Shown in pieces: positions 3,879 through 9,690 of a stretch of 24,147 bases of DNA. Source of the DNA: a virus; IMG/VR virus record IMGVR_UViG_3300018014_000013, positions 1 to 24,147 of that record; one strand, given 5' to 3'. The notes under the pieces were generated by a model. It had not been told where the DNA came from and did no database searches. It was given only the letters and a program-made list of their open reading frames with translations. The number at the start of each line of letters is the position of its first letter. Position 1 is the first letter of the stretch. Both the position numbers and the translations under genes were made by a program.

Positions 3879-5752
3879 CCGAAAGGGTTTTCGCGCGTCG
3901 CGGCCTCCGCGAAGATCGCGTCCACCTGAGCCCGGGTGGTGGCACCTTCCAGCGCCTTGGTGATGCGTTCCAACACATCATCTGGGATCACCGTCGAGGC
4001 GAACGCCCGGAGCGGCTTACCGGCCTTGACCCGGTTGCGGGCGAAGTCACGCCAGCGGGCGAGCTCCTTGGCGACCGCTTCCTCGTCGTCCTCATCCTCG
4101 CCTGTCCCGAGGTCGTAGCCCGTCATCCCGGTCTGAGCGGTGACGCCCGCTGTCTCGCTCTTGGCGACGGCCGGAATGGTACTGGACGGCGGTGGGTTCA
4201 AGTTCTCGGCCTGCGGGAAGCGTGGTTCGTCAGGATTGAAGGCCGCCACCGTGGCACCCGGAGTGTTCAGCGTCTTGCCGGGAATCAGGCCGGCCACAGC
4301 ATCGATCGGCTTGACGCCAGTGTCCACCAGGGGAATGCTCTCCACTGGTGCCCCCGTCTCGGGGTCGATCGGGCCAGCGATGGCCAGCATGTTGGCGGCA
4401 GGAATCCAGCCACCGTGGGCGGTGATAAGTCCACGGGGCAGGGGTCGCTCATTGTCAACGGGAAGCCCGAACATTTCCGTACGCATGTCGTCAGGGCCGA
4501 CGGCCGCGTGCTGAATGCCGATCGCCCAGACCTGAGCCTCAGAGACGCGATCCTCCTTCTCGGCGGCGTAGGTGGTCTGCATCTTCACCGGCAGCCCCAG
4601 GTCGTTCTGGAGGTAGTCGGTGAAGATGCCGTCGACGTGCTCCGCGAGGGGCCGGTCAGAGACGCGCTCCTGCACATCCATCTGGGTGTCGGCGGTGGCG
4701 CGGTTCACGTCCTGGGTGATGCCCACGTCCTCGGGGACCACGCCAAAGGCCGCACACGTCTTGCGGGCCAACCAGAGGTAGGCGTCCTCGTCGAACGCCT
4801 GCTGGCGGTTGGCGGTGAACCTGAAGCCCGACGGGACGATGTGAACCTGAACCTTGACCTTCTGGTCCTGCCCGAGCTTGGCGTTGAGCCGATCTTCGAG
4901 TTCCTGCTGGGCCGCGGGGTCGGTCATCTCGGACGGAGCCTCACCGAAGCCGCCGGGGATGTTGCCGTCCGTCCAGTAGTCCAACAGCCCCATCGTCATC
5001 CGCATGTCGGTGTTGGCGGTGAGCAGCACGTCCTCGATGGGTGCCTGCCCGTAGGGGCTGTCCGGACGCGGCCAGAACGGCTGGTAGATAAGGTCGGTCG
5101 CCTGCTGCCAGTCGAAAGGCAGCCCCAGGACGAACTGCACGAAAGCGGGGGCCGGAGGGGTGGGGGTGCGGCCGTCATAGTCCACCAGGGGGGCGATGCT
5201 GGTCCCGTCCACCACGTCCAGCGCATAGACGCGACCGCTCACGTCCCGCCGCTTATACAGGCTCCCGGCGTCGTAGGTGAACATGTCCCAGAGGTACTTG
5301 GCGATAAATGACTTGTAGGGCGTGATCCCATCTGGCCTGGCGATGGCCGCCCTTCCCGCCTTGATGGCGGAGGTCAGGTCGCCACTCTCCCCGTCGGCGG
5401 GTACAATGGACCAGTCGAACGACCGGAAGCTGTCGATGCGCCGCTTGCGACAGATCCGCGCCCAGTCGTACGAGTAGCAGATCTGTCCGATGGTGTCGAA
5501 GCTCACCAGCCCGTTCCGGGGCCGAGTGGAGATGTTGAAGCCGGTCTGGTAGTCCCAGGCCCTCGGCTCGCCGCCGTAACTCAGCCACGGTGCCAGCGGC
5601 GTCCCCGGTGAGAACGGGCGCTGGTAGCCCATGCCCTGAATGTCCATGCTCGCCTGCGTCGCGGGGTCGGGGCTCTTGCCGGCGTTGGGCACGAAGATGG
5701 TCGAGGCAGCCTCCTTGGCCACCCGGGTCACCTGGAAAGGACCGATCTTCAC
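3875..5752 (-). CDS. Portal protein
   Basis: 625 residues from GTG 5752, overlapping the terminase stop (GTGA). The portal forms the dodecameric DNA gate at one capsid vertex. Family-like segments in order are WARICRKRRIDSFRSFDWSI near residue 97, KYLWDMFTYDAGSLYKRRD near 150, the conserved YGQAPIEDVLLTANTDMRMT near 235, and WLARKTCAAFGVVPEDVGIT near 327. These match the stem and wing regions of HK97/SPP1-type portals of actinophages. The C-terminal 150 residues are an acidic, proline-rich extension (GEDEDDEEAVAKELARW) that ends in a helical domain, longer than in minimal portals. Two VAK motifs occur, one at the extreme N-terminus. Confidence 0.9.
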   Translation of the reverse strand: MKIGPFQVTRVAKEAASTIFVPNAGKSPDPATQASMDIQGMGYQRPFSPGTPLAPWLSYGGEPRAWDYQTGFNISTRPRNGLVSFDTIGQICYSYDWARICRKRRIDSFRSFDWSIVPADGESGDLTSAIKAGRAAIARPDGITPYKSFIAKYLWDMFTYDAGSLYKRRDVSGRVYALDVVDGTSIAPLVDYDGRTPTPPAPAFVQFVLGLPFDWQQATDLIYQPFWPRPDSPYGQAPIEDVLLTANTDMRMTMGLLDYWTDGNIPGGFGEAPSEMTDPAAQQELEDRLNAKLGQDQKVKVQVHIVPSGFRFTANRQQAFDEDAYLWLARKTCAAFGVVPEDVGITQDVNRATADTQMDVQERVSDRPLAEHVDGIFTDYLQNDLGLPVKMQTTYAAEKEDRVSEAQVWAIGIQHAAVGPDDMRTEMFGLPVDNERPLPRGLITAHGGWIPAANMLAIAGPIDPETGAPVESIPLVDTGVKPIDAVAGLIPGKTLNTPGATVAAFNPDEPRFPQAENLNPPPSSTIPAVAKSETAGVTAQTGMTGYDLGTGEDEDDEEAVAKELARWRDFARNRVKAGKPLRAFASTVIPDDVLERITKALEGATTRAQVDAIFAEAATRENPFG

Positions 5753-7206
5753 GCTGCCTCCTTGGGCTCGTTACAGAGCGTGCATAGGCCGTCTCGCCAG
5801 AGGTGGTGGCCGTTCGGACGTCCGGGGCAGGTGGTCGCCGCCCTAGCCTCGGTCTGAGCGGCCAGGAAGGCGAGGTAGTTCTCGCCAGCCGCCCCACCCG
5901 CGAGGTTGAGCCACGAGACGGCCCACACTAGGGCGTCCATGCGCCCCGGGGACCACCCACTCTCAGGGGTCCACGAGATGAGTTCGTCCTCGAGCTTGGC
6001 CAACTGCCCGACGTGGTGAACCCGGCCCTGCTCGTACAGGGCGGCCACAGGCTCGGCACGCTGGCGCTTGGACCGGCTGGCGGTGACGATCTCAACCGGG
6101 ACCGTCTTATCCACGGCCTTGATGGTCTCCACCACCATGAGGCCGCCGTAGTTGCCCTCAGCGACGATCTTGTCGGCGCCGAACTCGCGGTAGGCCGCCA
6201 CAGCGCGACGTGCCCACTCGGCGGGGGAGGCGGTGACCGTGCGATCCGCGAGCACGTAGCCGTGGCCATCGATGCCCTTGCCGACGACAACGATGCCGCA
6301 CTCATCGGCGCCCTTGCTGTCGGACCCGCTCGGGTCCACCCCCACCACCAGGCGGCGCATCTCGGGGGGAACCTCGACGCGACCAGTCAAGAGCCTGCCG
6401 TCGTCACCCTCACGGTCCCGGAACAGTTCCAGGGTCCACAAGGCGCCCGGCACGTCCTCTAGCAACTCTGCCATCAACTCCTGGCGCCCGATCCGGGTGC
6501 CCTCATACGTTCCGATGGTCTGCTGCCGGTACAGCGGGGTCAGGTTGTCAAGGTTGTCGTAGGTCGTCCACGTCACCGTTCGCGTCGTCGGAAGCGAGCG
6601 GATCACCCGGGTCAGGGCGTTCTGCTGCGGTGTCGTGGTCACCACCACTCTCGGGTCGGTGCCCTCGCTCATGGTCAGCATGAGCATCGTCCAGGCGGTG
6701 TCCTGAGCGTCACCCTTGCGGGCGTCTGTCCAAGCCGCCACCTCATCACACCAGGCGGTGTCATGGCCAGGGCCGCGGAGAGAGGCCGGCACCTCGGCGC
6801 TGTAGGTGTGAGCTACGGCGCCGTTCGGCCAGGTCACCTGTGACATCGTCGGATGGTAGACGGGCCGGAAGTCGTCAAAGCTACAGGCGAGGATGCCGCT
6901 CGGCCCCTCGACCATGACATCTCGGACGGCCGCTGGCGTCCTTCCAACTAGGGCGATGCTCTTGGCCCGCCCATTCCTGACCCGGTCGTTGATCCACTCG
7001 GCGCCGGCCCGCGTCTTCCCTCCCCGCCTGCCGGCGAGGATGTACCAGACCACCCAGACGCCCTCGGGCGGATGCTGGAGGGTTCGCGCGTGCTTCCCGA
7101 AGCCGTCGTGGGGCTTGCCGTCGCAGTCGGGGCGGTCGCAGTACCAGCGAGATCGGGCACGGGCGGGAGGATCGAGGGCGTCGGCCTGTAGCGTCCAAAG
7201 AGACAA
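5749..7206 (-). CDS. terL: Terminase large subunit (packaging ATPase and nuclease)
   Basis: 485 residues starting at a rare TTG (7206), supported by CGGAGG eight bases upstream. It powers DNA packaging and cuts concatemers. Walker A is AGRRGGKT at residues 58-65. The Walker B-like segment TAWCDEVAAW has its Asp-Glu pair near 154-155. The RNase H-like nuclease domain shows VVGVDPSGSD (Asp291), KIVAEGNYGG (Glu350) and GRMDALVWAV (Asp424). Two extra clusters are unusual: an N-terminal CDRPDCDGKPHDGFGKH before the ATPase, and a C-terminal CPGRPNGHHLW...CTLC that looks like a zinc knuckle. The gene heads the head operon, directly downstream of the tRNA block. Confidence 0.93.
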   Translation of the reverse strand: MSLWTLQADALDPPARARSRWYCDRPDCDGKPHDGFGKHARTLQHPPEGVWVVWYILAGRRGGKTRAGAEWINDRVRNGRAKSIALVGRTPAAVRDVMVEGPSGILACSFDDFRPVYHPTMSQVTWPNGAVAHTYSAEVPASLRGPGHDTAWCDEVAAWTDARKGDAQDTAWTMLMLTMSEGTDPRVVVTTTPQQNALTRVIRSLPTTRTVTWTTYDNLDNLTPLYRQQTIGTYEGTRIGRQELMAELLEDVPGALWTLELFRDREGDDGRLLTGRVEVPPEMRRLVVGVDPSGSDSKGADECGIVVVGKGIDGHGYVLADRTVTASPAEWARRAVAAYREFGADKIVAEGNYGGLMVVETIKAVDKTVPVEIVTASRSKRQRAEPVAALYEQGRVHHVGQLAKLEDELISWTPESGWSPGRMDALVWAVSWLNLAGGAAGENYLAFLAAQTEARAATTCPGRPNGHHLWRDGLCTLCNEPKEAA

Positions 7207-7332: not shown

Positions 7333-7408
7333 TGGCGCCCCCGCGGGGAGTCGAACCAGCGGCCACTCGGTTAAGAGCCGAGCGCTCTGACCTCTGAGCT
7401 ACGGGTGC
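7333..7408 (-). tRNA. tRNA-Lys(CTT), mismatched and possibly chimeric 3' half
   Basis: The acceptor 5' strand GCACCCG, the D-arm GCTC/GAGC and the anticodon arm CTCGG/CCGAG (loop CTCTTAA, anticodon CTT) are all good. CCA is encoded. The T-stem does not close: GCTGG faces CCCCG, with three mismatches around a normal TTCGACT loop. The acceptor has an A3-G70 mismatch. The 3' part (CCCCG CGGGGGC G CCA) would fit a different tRNA with T-stem CGGGG and acceptor GCCCCCG. This suggests recombination at the shared TTCGACTCC. It may be non-functional. Confidence 0.7.
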
Positions 7409-7416
7409 CTGGCGCG

Positions 7417-7492
7417 TGGTGCACCCGGCTGGAGTCGAACCAGCGGCCCACCGGGTAAAGGCCGGCAGCTCTGTCCGCTGAGCTACGGGTGC
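7417..7492 (-). tRNA. tRNA-Lys(TTT) with C33
   Basis: A complete 76-base cloverleaf. The acceptor is GCACCCG/CGGGTGC with A73 and encoded CCA, the D-arm is GCTC/GAGC, and the T-arm is GCTGG/CCAGC around TTCGACT. The anticodon stem GCCGG/CCGGT encloses the loop CCTTTAC, so the anticodon is TTT (Lys, AAA). Position 33 is C instead of the almost universal U. It lies one base from the tRNA-Ile gene, so the transcript must be cut between them. Confidence 0.88.
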
Positions 7493-7493
7493 A

Positions 7494-7570
7494 TGGTACC
7501 CAGGGGAGGGGTCGAACCTCCGACCTCCGGCATATCAGGCCGACGCTCTGTCCGGCTGAGCTACCCGGGC
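7494..7570 (-). tRNA. tRNA-Ile(GAT)
   Basis: A complete 77-base cloverleaf. The acceptor GCCCGGG/CCTGGGT has two G-T wobbles, the D-arm is GCTC/GAGC, and the T-arm is GGAGG/CCTCC around TTCGACC. The anticodon stem TCGGC/GCCGG encloses loop CTGATAT, giving anticodon GAT with normal U33. CCA is encoded. It reads codon AUC, common in GC-rich genes. Confidence 0.92.
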
Positions 7571-7649
7571 CCGTAGTGCGCCTGCCGCTCGCGTGGCGCG
7601 GTTCGAGGCCCACCTGCCGTGTGGGCGACGCACCGCCGTCAGTGTACCG

Positions 7650-7724
7650 TGGCTGCCTCGGCTGGGATCGAACCAGCGACACGCCGGTTAACGGCCGGGT
7701 GCTCTACCGCTGAGCTACGAGGCA
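7650..7724 (-). tRNA. tRNA-Asn(GTT) with C33
   Basis: A 75-base cloverleaf. The acceptor is TGCCTCG/CGAGGCA with G73 and encoded CCA, the D-arm is GCTC/GAGC, and the T-arm is GCTGG/CCAGC around TTCGATC. The anticodon stem CCCGG/CCGGC has a C-C mismatch at its outer pair. The loop is CCGTTAA, so the anticodon is GTT (Asn) and position 33 is C instead of U, as in the tRNA-Lys(TTT). The 79 bases between this gene and tRNA-Ile (7571-7649) hold no tRNA or ORF I can support. Confidence 0.88.
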
Positions 7725-7727
7725 AGA

Positions 7728-7837
7728 TCCCGGCCGTCGGGGCGGCGCAGCGGGCCCGTTTCGTCCTGGCGCGCCGGTTGCCCGGTCTTAGGATGGATTC
7801 CGCTGAACGCCGTTGTCCCCGACGGTTGGTCCGGTTC
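7728..7837 (-). repeat. Bracket repeat, copy B (upstream of the tRNA block)
   Basis: Partner of copy A, with shared blocks at 7728-7748 and 7816-7837 identical to 7229-7249 and 7308-7329. The same paired arms occur (CCGTCGGGG with CCCCGACGG), again with a four-base bulge (ACAA) followed by CGGCG/CGCCG. The stem is therefore kept while the loop differs completely. It begins directly after the methyltransferase stop and ends three bases before tRNA-Asn. Confidence 0.6.
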
Positions 7838-8464
7838 TTAGGTAGGGCGGATCGCCTCCATCAGACGGGCACTGATCCATTCCGTGTAGGCGGGGGGGAT
7901 GGCTTGTCGTGCCTCGTCCACGGTCATCCAGTCGATCCCCATGGCGGGGCCGAACTCGCTCTCCGGGTAAGTGCCGCCATGGTCCCGTGGGTGCTCCCCG
8001 CGCTGGTGGCAGCATCGGGGGAGGAGCACGGCCCCGGTCAGCCACGGCATCTCAAAGTAGCGGTGGGACCGGACGGGGATGCCGAACATTGAACCGCAGA
8101 GCATCACGGGATGGATTAGTTCGCGGCGGGCGTCGGGCACGTTCTCGATCACCCACGGGCGCCCGGTGGCTGCGAGATGCTGCCGCACGGGGGCAATCAG
8201 CCGTGGATGCGCGTCCCGAGACCCCCGCCAGGCCGTCACGCCTGCGTACGCTTGGCAGGGTGGAGATGCGTGCATGGCAACGAAACGCTCGGAGTAGTCG
8301 TCCAACCACGGGAGTAGCTCCATGGCGTCGGCTCGATGGAACTCGAACGGGTAGTGGGGCTGAGGCTTGATGTCCACGCCCACCACCTCGAAGCCCGCGC
8401 GGTGGTAACCGACAGCGGCGCCACCCGCTCCACAAAACAGGTCCAGAAGGCGGGGCCGGGTCAT
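7838..8464 (-). CDS. DNA C5-cytosine methyltransferase, short phage type
   Basis: 208 residues from ATG 8464, overlapping the stop of the LAGLIDADG gene (ATGA). It transfers a methyl group from S-adenosylmethionine to C5 of cytosine in DNA, perhaps protecting phage DNA from restriction. Motif I is LLDLFCGAGGA (residues 6-16). Motif IV is ASPPCQAY, with catalytic Cys70. Motif VI is the ENV at 107-109, and motif VIII is the RSHRYFE segment. A motif X-like PPAYTEWISARLMEAI closes the protein. It is shorter than typical Dcm enzymes because the target-recognition region is small, but all catalytic motifs are present. No cognate restriction enzyme is nearby, so it is probably an orphan. Confidence 0.9.
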   Translation of the reverse strand: MTRPRLLDLFCGAGGAAVGYHRAGFEVVGVDIKPQPHYPFEFHRADAMELLPWLDDYSERFVAMHASPPCQAYAGVTAWRGSRDAHPRLIAPVRQHLAATGRPWVIENVPDARRELIHPVMLCGSMFGIPVRSHRYFEMPWLTGAVLLPRCCHQRGEHPRDHGGTYPESEFGPAMGIDWMTVDEARQAIPPAYTEWISARLMEAIRPT

Positions 8465-8850
8465 GCCGCCTCCTCGACGGCCCTGAGCACTCGCTCGGCC
8501 TGCTCTCGTTTCGGCTCACTCAGATAGGGCCAGAGCGCCTGGAGTGTGGCGATCGCCTCCGAGTGGCCCATGTAGACGCGGTGGATCGCGCGACGGTTGG
8601 GCGCTCGCGCTGGCCGCAGTGTGATCGCGCCAGGGCGCCCGACCGCAGCTCGGAACCGAACTAGCGGGCGAGGGTCCACCTGTTCAATGTCGAGATGGAC
8701 AACAACCGCCCGGCCGGGACGCCTGTCTCGGTGGACCGACACAGACCCCTCACCGTCGAAGAATCCGGCCGCCCAGGCAAGATCAACGTCAGAGCCCATC
8801 GCGGCCCCGCCAGCCCCGCAGAACAGGTCGAGCAGCCTAGGCTTGCTCAC
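8461..8850 (-). CDS. LAGLIDADG homing endonuclease fused to a methyltransferase N-terminal fragment
   Basis: 129 residues from GTG 8850. Residues 1-19 (VSKPRLLDLFCGAGGAAMG) are a second copy of the N-terminus of the C5 methyltransferase that follows, identical at 15 of 19 positions but diverged in codons. From residue 21 the protein changes to DVDLAWAAGFFDGEGSVSV, a single LAGLIDADG motif with the catalytic acid near Asp32. It ends with the family-like tail VYMGHSEAIATLQALWPYLS. Single-motif enzymes of about this size act as homodimers. The gene ends in TGA overlapping the methyltransferase ATG. It looks like a homing endonuclease inserted at motif I, with the host gene rebuilt by a duplicate start. 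It does not look like an intein, since no splice-junction residues are seen. Confidence 0.82.
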   Translation of the reverse strand: MSKPRLLDLFCGAGGAAMGSDVDLAWAAGFFDGEGSVSVHRDRRPGRAVVVHLDIEQVDPRPLVRFRAAVGRPGAITLRPARAPNRRAIHRVYMGHSEAIATLQALWPYLSEPKREQAERVLRAVEEAA

Positions 8851-9133
8851 GCTTCCCCCACCGTGCCTTGGCCGCCTTCCGTGCGGCTTCGGATCGTTGC
8901 TCTGGGGTGAGATGGGAGGCACGAGATTGACCGCCACGGCGGCCCGCCATGGCTTTCAGCGGGACGATGGCCTCGGGATTGTGCCGGGTCATGTCGCCCA
9001 CGTTGACGCGGGTGGGTGGCGGCACCAGACCGCCAAACTTGCCGGGTCGCCGCGAGCACGTCGGGCGATGGAGCAAGGACCCCCGCGTCTCGGAAGCCCC
9101 ACACTCGTCACAGTGGGTTGGGTTGCTACGCAT
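8837..9133 (-). CDS. Small basic protein with CxxC and KARWGK tail
   Basis: 98 residues from ATG 9133. It begins MRSNPTHCDECGASETRG, a half zinc knuckle. It ends in a basic, alanine-rich helix (SEAARKAAKARWGKREQA) of a type common in phage hypothetical proteins and probably nucleic acid-binding. It overlaps the next gene by 14 bases. A promoter-like TGCTATGCT with operator-like repeats lies directly upstream. The function is unknown. Confidence 0.75.
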   Translation of the reverse strand: MRSNPTHCDECGASETRGSLLHRPTCSRRPGKFGGLVPPPTRVNVGDMTRHNPEAIVPLKAMAGRRGGQSRASHLTPEQRSEAARKAAKARWGKREQA

Positions 9134-9166
9134 CTCTGCTACGCAGCATAGCAGGTTTGCTACGCA
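9124..9166 (-). promoter_or_regulatory. Promoter with repeated TGCTACGCA operator-like sites
   Basis: Reading leftward, TGC-TATGCT forms an extended -10 (hexamer at 9150-9145) 11 bases before ATG 9133. The 9-mer TGCTACGCA (plus strand) occurs at 9124-9132, 9137-9145 and 9158-9166. An inverted partial copy, GCATAGCA, lies at 9146-9153, so TGCTA...TAGCA makes a dyad across the -10. The last copy covers the stop codon of the upstream gene. This is what a repressor-controlled promoter would look like. Confidence 0.5.
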
Positions 9167-9690
9167 TCCACGATCCGCAGATGCCGGGCGAGCACCCGCC
9201 GTAGCACGTCCTGCCGCTCAGGCTCCAAACCCGCCTCAGGATCAGCGAGGACCGCCAGCCACACGGCCACCATCACGGCCGAACGCTTCTCGTCGATCAC
9301 GACCACCCGCTCTTCCAGATTCAGCCGGGCGATGTCTACCAGGAGCTTCCCCGCCGCCGCCAGCGCCCGTTCGTAGATCGCGACCTCTGACCGGAGCTGT
9401 TCGCCCCCCTTGTCATCGGTGAACCGGATCTCCGTCAGCCGGGCGACCGCCTCCCTGGCGTCGTCCTTCATCTGCATGAGTTCACCGGCCAGGGATTGCA
9501 GCGCCCCGATGGTGTCCACCACGGGCTCACTCTTGCCCCCGCCGAGCAATGCCCGGCTCTCAGCGAGCCTCAGAGCTGCCTTCGCTTTCACTTGGGGAGC
9601 AGAGCCGCCGTGCATCCGGCAAACCGTCGCCCCCGAGTTAGCCCACGATCGACAAGCCGTCCCGTCGCGCCTGGTAGCCGAGCACCTCAT
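9160..9690 (-). CDS. HGG-motif zinc-binding protein, candidate small terminase
   Basis: 176 residues from ATG 9690. A longer frame reaches 9804 but overlaps the neighbouring gene heavily. The N-terminus MRCSATRRDGTACRSWA, then CRMHGGSAPQVKAKA, is the Cys3His cluster with HGG seen in many actinophage proteins, some annotated as terminase small subunits. The rest is helical (LQSLAGELMQMKDDAREAV, YERALAAAGKLLVDIARLN), as expected for an oligomeric DNA-recognition protein. It lies upstream of terL, although the methyltransferase genes and tRNAs intervene. The small-terminase assignment is an inference. Confidence 0.6.
   Translation of the reverse strand: MRCSATRRDGTACRSWANSGATVCRMHGGSAPQVKAKAALRLAESRALLGGGKSEPVVDTIGALQSLAGELMQMKDDAREAVARLTEIRFTDDKGGEQLRSEVAIYERALAAAGKLLVDIARLNLEERVVVIDEKRSAVMVAVWLAVLADPEAGLEPERQDVLRRVLARHLRIVDA

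Follow-up and report, generated by a model that had tools for sequence, protein, structure and literature searches.

A probable phage homing element that interrupts the start of a C5-methyltransferase gene and would restore its target with a diverged terminus

How does a small endonuclease come to begin with the first residues of a DNA methyltransferase (MTase) that is itself encoded, complete, directly behind it? The question is raised by a locus on the minus strand of an IMG/VR record of 24,147 bases (which may itself be a fragment); the whole record is referred to here as the window. Read along that strand, a 98-aa ORF is followed by an ORF in which an MTase start is fused to an endonuclease, and then by a C5-type MTase, four tRNA genes and the large terminase (Table 1). 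A preliminary description had the first 19 residues of the endonuclease repeating the MTase N-terminus, and the translation bears this out: copy 1, which opens the endonuclease, and copy 2, which opens the MTase, are identical at 15 of 19 residues (16 when Met is assigned to the two start codons). The described overlap is also exact, the fusion ORF ending in GCATGA, which contains the ATG of the MTase within an ATGA overlap; the GAGGAGG, read directly from the sequence, lies four bases ahead of that ATG. The MTase exceeds the Pfam DNA_methylase cut-off (23.9 bits against 22), and the 98-aa ORF has weak matches only, to PHROGs of unknown function.

Table 1. Features of the locus, in window coordinates.
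Feature	Position	Strand	Details
98-aa ORF, upstream	8837..9133	minus	its end overlaps the captured GTG start
Fusion ORF	8850..8461	minus	129 aa, GTG start, VSKPRLLDLFCGAGGAAMG-SDVDLAWAAGFFDGEG...; MTase start and motif I, then single-motif LAGLIDADG
Copy 1 (19 residues, VSKPRLLDLFCGAGGAAMG)	8794..8850	minus	GTG and motif I codons; opens the endonuclease ORF
Endonuclease body and stop codon, single-motif LAGLIDADG	8461..8793	minus	PHROG 5046, AlphaFold, Foldseek and profile matches
GAGGAGG, Shine-Dalgarno-like, for the MTase	8469..8475	minus	within the 3' codons of the endonuclease
Full-length MTase gene	8464..7838	minus	208 aa, begins MTRPRLLDLFCGAGGAAVGYHRAGF
Copy 2 (ATG and motif I, MTRPRLLDLFCGAGGAAVG)	8408..8464	minus	5' end of the complete MTase
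C5-type DNA MTase body (P0002)	7838..8407	minus	phrog_363, E 1.4e-35
tRNA cluster, n=4 (Lys-CTT, Lys-TTT, Ile-GAT, Asn-GTT)	7333-7724		between MTase and terminase
Large terminase	7206..5749	minus	Pfam Terminase_6N

The repeat on the two flanks of the endonuclease is beyond chance. Upstream and downstream flanks match by blastp at E 9e-11, and their score of 98 lies above the 99th percentile (62.8) of 480 mismatched-pair controls; the control maximum, 164, probably came from related neighbourhoods. This test used 80 de-replicated endonuclease instances of 104, with one short-flanked locus (L039) left out.

By its PHROG match and modelled fold, the endonuclease domain is a standard minimal LAGLIDADG enzyme; the motif I leader, the part modelled with least confidence, is an add-on. 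Pfam gives only LAGLIDADG_3, below threshold (E 0.02), and PHROG 5046 is matched at E 4e-16; in a family alignment of 50 sequences, all 50 match PHROG 5046, 22 match Pfam LAGLIDADG_1 and eight LAGLIDADG_3. The AlphaFold model (pLDDT 91.3) contains the LAGLIDADG helix and an alpha-beta-beta-alpha-beta-beta-alpha core, with elements H21-34, E35-41, E49-57, H60-70, E75-79, E89-94 and H96-109, and Foldseek matches it to I-MsoI (2fld, E 1.4e-5) and I-CvuI (5a74, E 2.3e-5); profile matches are to I-CreI, I-MsoI and I-CvuI. Residues E34 and Q57 (each conserved at 90% or more of the 50 sequences) and the invariant K114 align with the D, Q and K of I-CreI-type and I-MsoI chains, columns that we take to be the catalytic positions. 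Order in the model is lowest in the leader, where mean pLDDT is 75 for the first ten-residue block and 63 for the second; elsewhere it is at least 90. A search with the endonuclease body recovered 79 viral loci with N-termini that are mostly short and unlike motif I; judged from these sequences, the leader is not a trait of the endonuclease family. I-CreI, I-MsoI and I-CvuI are intron-encoded, and although the window endonuclease has the fold and active-site columns in common with them, it is free-standing and carries a host-gene leader. We also note that PHROG 5046 is labelled 'HNH endonuclease', yet the 50 aligned sequences that match it carry the LAGLIDADG motif, and that several phage genes in GenBank bear the HNH label as well.

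The preliminary description proposed looking for the same junction elsewhere, and an independent copy of the whole arrangement was found at a second locus, L227 (contig MGYJ01000097.1), which is filed as a gammaproteobacterial MAG and has neighbours that look phage-like. Here a GTG is followed by PRLLDLFCGAGGAAMG/S (the slash marks the junction), the endonuclease and then a complete MTase, which restarts within the end of the endonuclease ORF after a purine-rich stretch. The junction residue is identical in the two loci, in agreement with the earlier proposals that the insertion lies at the motif I codons and that the endonuclease captured the start of its host gene. The copy 1 peptides are identical at 17 of 17 residues (PRLLDLFCGAGGAAMGS) with synonymous changes only, although the residues ahead of this block differ (VSK in the window, MTCAR in L227), and both full MTases begin M(T/S)RPRLL. 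The endonucleases are 62% identical over the whole alignment and 59% over the body alone. A six-frame scan of 271 loci found motif I followed within 80 residues by a LAGLIDADG motif in just two, L227 and the record of the window itself (L001), with an MTase directly behind the endonuclease in both. The 5' MTase form is thus confined to two loci among those searched, and none of the 271 holds an endonuclease with this N-terminus and no MTase nearby, the finding that would have spoken against the described origin. The L227 contig also carries, at 3937-5373, a second MTase (phrog_67/498) with an in-frame LAGLIDADG domain (phrog_5046, residues 148-281), and so has two homing endonucleases in two MTase genes, the second like the reported Taj_79 type.

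Comparison of the motif I codons, also proposed earlier, bears on which copy is native. Relative to 62 natural motif I blocks, the codon log-likelihood of copy 1 falls at the 82nd percentile in the window and at the 37th in L227, and that of copy 2 falls below all 62 in both. In leave-one-out scoring, synonymous choice in copy 2 has a z of -2.38 in each locus, a value as low or lower being found in 2 of 73 natural MTases; the next 33 MTase codons are normal (z +0.36 and +0.02). The Met position of motif I, which is Met in 66 and Val in 11 of 78 sequences (the four copies included), is Val in copy 2 at both loci. Copy 1 thus has ordinary codons, and the oddity of copy 2 stops at the edge of the repeat; from this, the element probably introduced copy 2 as a diverged substitute, leaving in copy 1 what had been the MTase gene's own 5' end. 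Such a pattern would be expected if a 5' patch had been exchanged on an otherwise native MTase body; with two loci the evidence is moderate, and some of the oddity could come from the allele of an unsampled MTase lineage. At DNA level the copy 2 segments of the window and L227 are dissimilar, with differences in 11 of 14 codons, and show no sign of being a single recent cassette. Among 287 relatives of the window MTase in viral_contigs, no close element-free one was found (best 57%). The earlier suggestion that the host gene kept its function through a duplicated start thus stands in part, in that the MTase ORF is open and conserved and would be functional; simple duplication is unlikely, copy 2 being by the codon evidence a diverged replacement.

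Taken together, we consider it probable that a homing endonuclease element resides in the 5' end of a phage C5-MTase gene, having split its target and restored it with a diverged terminus. In an MTase gene free of the element, the LAGLIDADG enzyme would cut the codons of motif I at a presumed site GCGATGGGC/TACCACCGC, the insertion point being placed directly after the Gly codon of motif I (GAAMG/YHRAG). The pseudo-palindrome expected of a site cut by a homodimer is a weak hint here: the insertion point scores 4.53 of 11 pairs, the mean being 2.84, and is sixth among 96 offsets. Along with the endonuclease gene, repair would then introduce a diverged MTase 5' end, mostly synonymous in its differences and carrying its own ribosome-binding site and ATG, at which the MTase would restart, and the recipient's own 5' end would remain upstream, in frame with the endonuclease, to which it would supply start signals. 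The replaced codons would change the presumed left half-site from GCGATGGGC to GCTGTCGGT or GCCGTTGGC. Differing at the presumed target, the imported end should be uncuttable, and, sharing little DNA identity with the remnant, it should also hinder recombinational loss of the element.

The same pattern is seen at other genes. In L006 (4968-5392), whose endonuclease is related to that of the window, a helicase gene shows the mirrored arrangement at its 3' end, with the same sequence there in L007: the helicase ends in KWEWIRTILGG and a stop codon, and the endonuclease follows and then a remnant, KWSWIRTILGG, again with a stop codon. Here the direction of replacement can be decided because element-free relatives are available for comparison. 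Against the uninserted L311, the L006 remnant agrees at 29 of 33 nt, and the bases after it at 59 of 60. Agreement with the joined copy falls to 21 of 33, below that of every one of 30 windows of 33 nt upstream (minimum 24, average 30.7 of 33). In L308-L310, which are more distant, the tendency is the same but weaker, with 28 of 33 for the remnant and 24 of 33 for the joined copy, the upstream minimum being 25. At L006, then, the end behind the endonuclease is native and the joined end is the divergent copy; the comparison with L308-L311 is the cleanest empty-site case seen. In L039 the host gene ends HFQLRRGQTYP and the endonuclease HFQLRHGQTYP, and a search for relatives of this host gene returned only L039's own contig. 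In L047 (4983-5600) the endonuclease begins MAWTA and the next gene keeps ATGGCGTGGACTGCG; relatives of that gene start with MAWTAPRT or near variants in most of the 15 loci examined, of 30 found. The old start of the L047 gene is now out of frame, with the shift just after the start, and an internal GTG may be used. The clear cases are therefore the window, L227, L006 (with the L007 sequence) and L039, and the short L047 repeat is suggestive. In a flank-repeat screen of 110 instances many matches were low-complexity and in the wrong frame, and those used here were checked by eye.

Terminus replacement is not universal in the endonuclease family, since none of the seven named-phage relatives L371-L377 has a convincing terminal repeat. 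One of these, from Mycobacterium phage BaboJay (L372, 1312-3141), has a LAGLIDADG gene, annotated HNH, that splits an RNA ligase gene just past the HGTS motif; ahead of the insert, about 85 nt have diverged from relatives that are 98-99% identical, which resembles a co-conversion tract, and the stretch with the endonuclease is covered whole by one of 147 matching records. In an actinobacterial MAG (L253, 980-1475), a LAGLIDADG ORF is likewise flanked by an imperfect repeat about 39 codons in length. Searches for further copies of the window arrangement gave no match by tblastn against phages with P0001, its body or the L227 homologue, or against plasmids with P0001, and the junction DNA pattern, which recovers both known loci among the 271, is absent from viral_contigs. 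A terminase search for sister phages gave a nearest TerL of 58%, with neither motif I nor the LAGLIDADG motif in the three best (L272-L274) of 34 terminase loci.

How the element reached two MTases bears on the alternatives. When pairs of 50 endonucleases are ranked, the 59% identity of the window and L227 bodies reaches the 99.6th percentile, and the endonuclease tree unites the two (SH-aLRT 97); their MTase bodies are 48% identical, at the 14th percentile of pairs among 75 MTases. By path length in the MTase tree the window MTase is nearest to L147, L148 and L151 (support is 99 for a four-row set containing the window), and that of L227 to L157, L201 and L163. Separate homing into two MTase lineages is nevertheless unproved, because an AU test does not reject the two MTases as sisters (p 0.38), and a single old insertion inherited by both is possible. 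In its full form this alternative supposes one ancient insertion passed on vertically in both phages, with copy 1 kept as a working part of the endonuclease, as leader or autoregulatory binding site, while copy 2 drifted. The strict conservation of the copy 1 peptide, with only synonymous changes, is what it would require, but the peptide is unchanged beside an endonuclease body that has diverged by 41%, a combination easier to explain if each recipient supplied copy 1 afresh; moreover, the MTase bodies are less alike than typical pairs and the low order of copy 1 in the model makes a structural role doubtful. We judge vertical inheritance of this kind to be improbable.

Slightly better placed, though still unlikely, is an origin by start capture without homing, in which two MTase genes lay in tandem or were illegitimately merged and the endonuclease became fused to the first codons of one, the rest of which was deleted, beside the complete second. 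Phage MTases of this type are common, as the 287 viral_contigs relatives attest, and the many codon differences between copies 1 and 2 are such as two genes would show. Against this, L227 repeats the exact junction residue and gene order with an endonuclease body that is 59% identical, the odd codons are restricted to the duplicated block of the MTase, and the same logic recurs at other genes with relatives of the endonuclease. Least likely by some distance is a spliced element, an intein or group I intron joining copy 1 to the MTase body. Intronic endonuclease ORFs are commonly fused in frame to exon 1, as the endonuclease would be here, but splicing is not needed here, since the MTase has a second start and motif I that are complete, and the interval of about 390 nt is almost all endonuclease codons. 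A group I intron was rejected, no Rfam intron being found at E up to 1 in the window (7700-9200) or in L227 (5700-7200), as was an intein, with no intein family in the Pfam scan and a host ORF that restarts at its own ATG.

If homing with terminus replacement is the correct reading, it would be a third route, beside introns and inteins, by which phage homing elements occupy conserved codons and leave the gene alive. It would explain odd fusions of endonucleases with host genes that annotation might call chimeras or errors, and self-immunity by recoding would become testable with a 129-residue enzyme and a predicted site. More broadly, we would put at about even the chance that phages carry a minimal PHROG 5046-type family of natural 'home-and-rescue' drives, counterparts of the engineered ones, that enter the 5' or 3' coding ends of valued genes, with a recoded terminus that escapes the enzyme and blocks recombining out, so that a selfish element could sit in an active-site motif without cost.

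Phage methylase genes are known as homing targets from endonucleases within actinophage DNA methylases, LAGLIDADG in Taj_79 and HNH in ShiLan, although as described in the relevant passages (PMC9957025, PMC11855218) these are internal insertions in another methylase family. The main text of PMC9957025 makes no mention of duplication, a start codon or an N-terminus, and recoding or restoration is not mentioned in the passages searched of PMC10448857, which surveys phage endonucleases lying at boundaries of recombination. Known elements that are flanked by a duplicated host-gene segment and exchange gene fragments are mostly described as introns, such as the Tremella introns in which N-terminal parts are duplicated, whereas no intron was found at the window locus. 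Replacement of a host-gene terminus by a phage homing element was not found in the literature searched, in which subscription journals were thinly covered; terminus replacement is known from fungi, and the phage form appears to be unreported.

The closest parallels are indeed fungal. In the WHO elements of Torulaspora and Lachancea, as presented in the parts of the report consulted (PMC7282813), homing exchanges one end of the host gene for a resistant one, and the displaced end persists as a fragment beyond the element; as in the window, the endonuclease is of LAGLIDADG class and splicing is not involved, and the gene product survives, as the MTase would. A similar layout, with the endonuclease between a gene with a replaced terminus and the native fragment, is seen in the window, L227 and L006, and the match of that fragment to uninserted alleles rests on codon choice in the window and L227 and on direct empty-site comparison only for L006 against L311. 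By analogy the window element would work like a WHO element, a likeness claimed for its operation only. The WHO elements act on the yeast nuclear gene FBA1, at a 3' end of about 400 bp, with an intein-derived zinc-finger protein (same passages of PMC7282813), in contrast to the phage MTase, 57-nt 5' end, minimal single-motif enzyme and in-frame fused remnant of the window. The pattern is also reminiscent of fungal mitochondrial mobile ORFs with C-terminal duplication, for which the relevant sections of PMC3630166 describe Glomus atp6, atp9, cox2 and nad3, with Allomyces atp6 as reference: the endonuclease ORF lies between inserted and native copies of the terminus, the native copy is like that of uninserted relatives, and the inserted copy differs mostly in its DNA. 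As these elements are mitochondrial and occupy 3' ends, L006 is their nearest match, and the window would be the mirror image at a 5' end.
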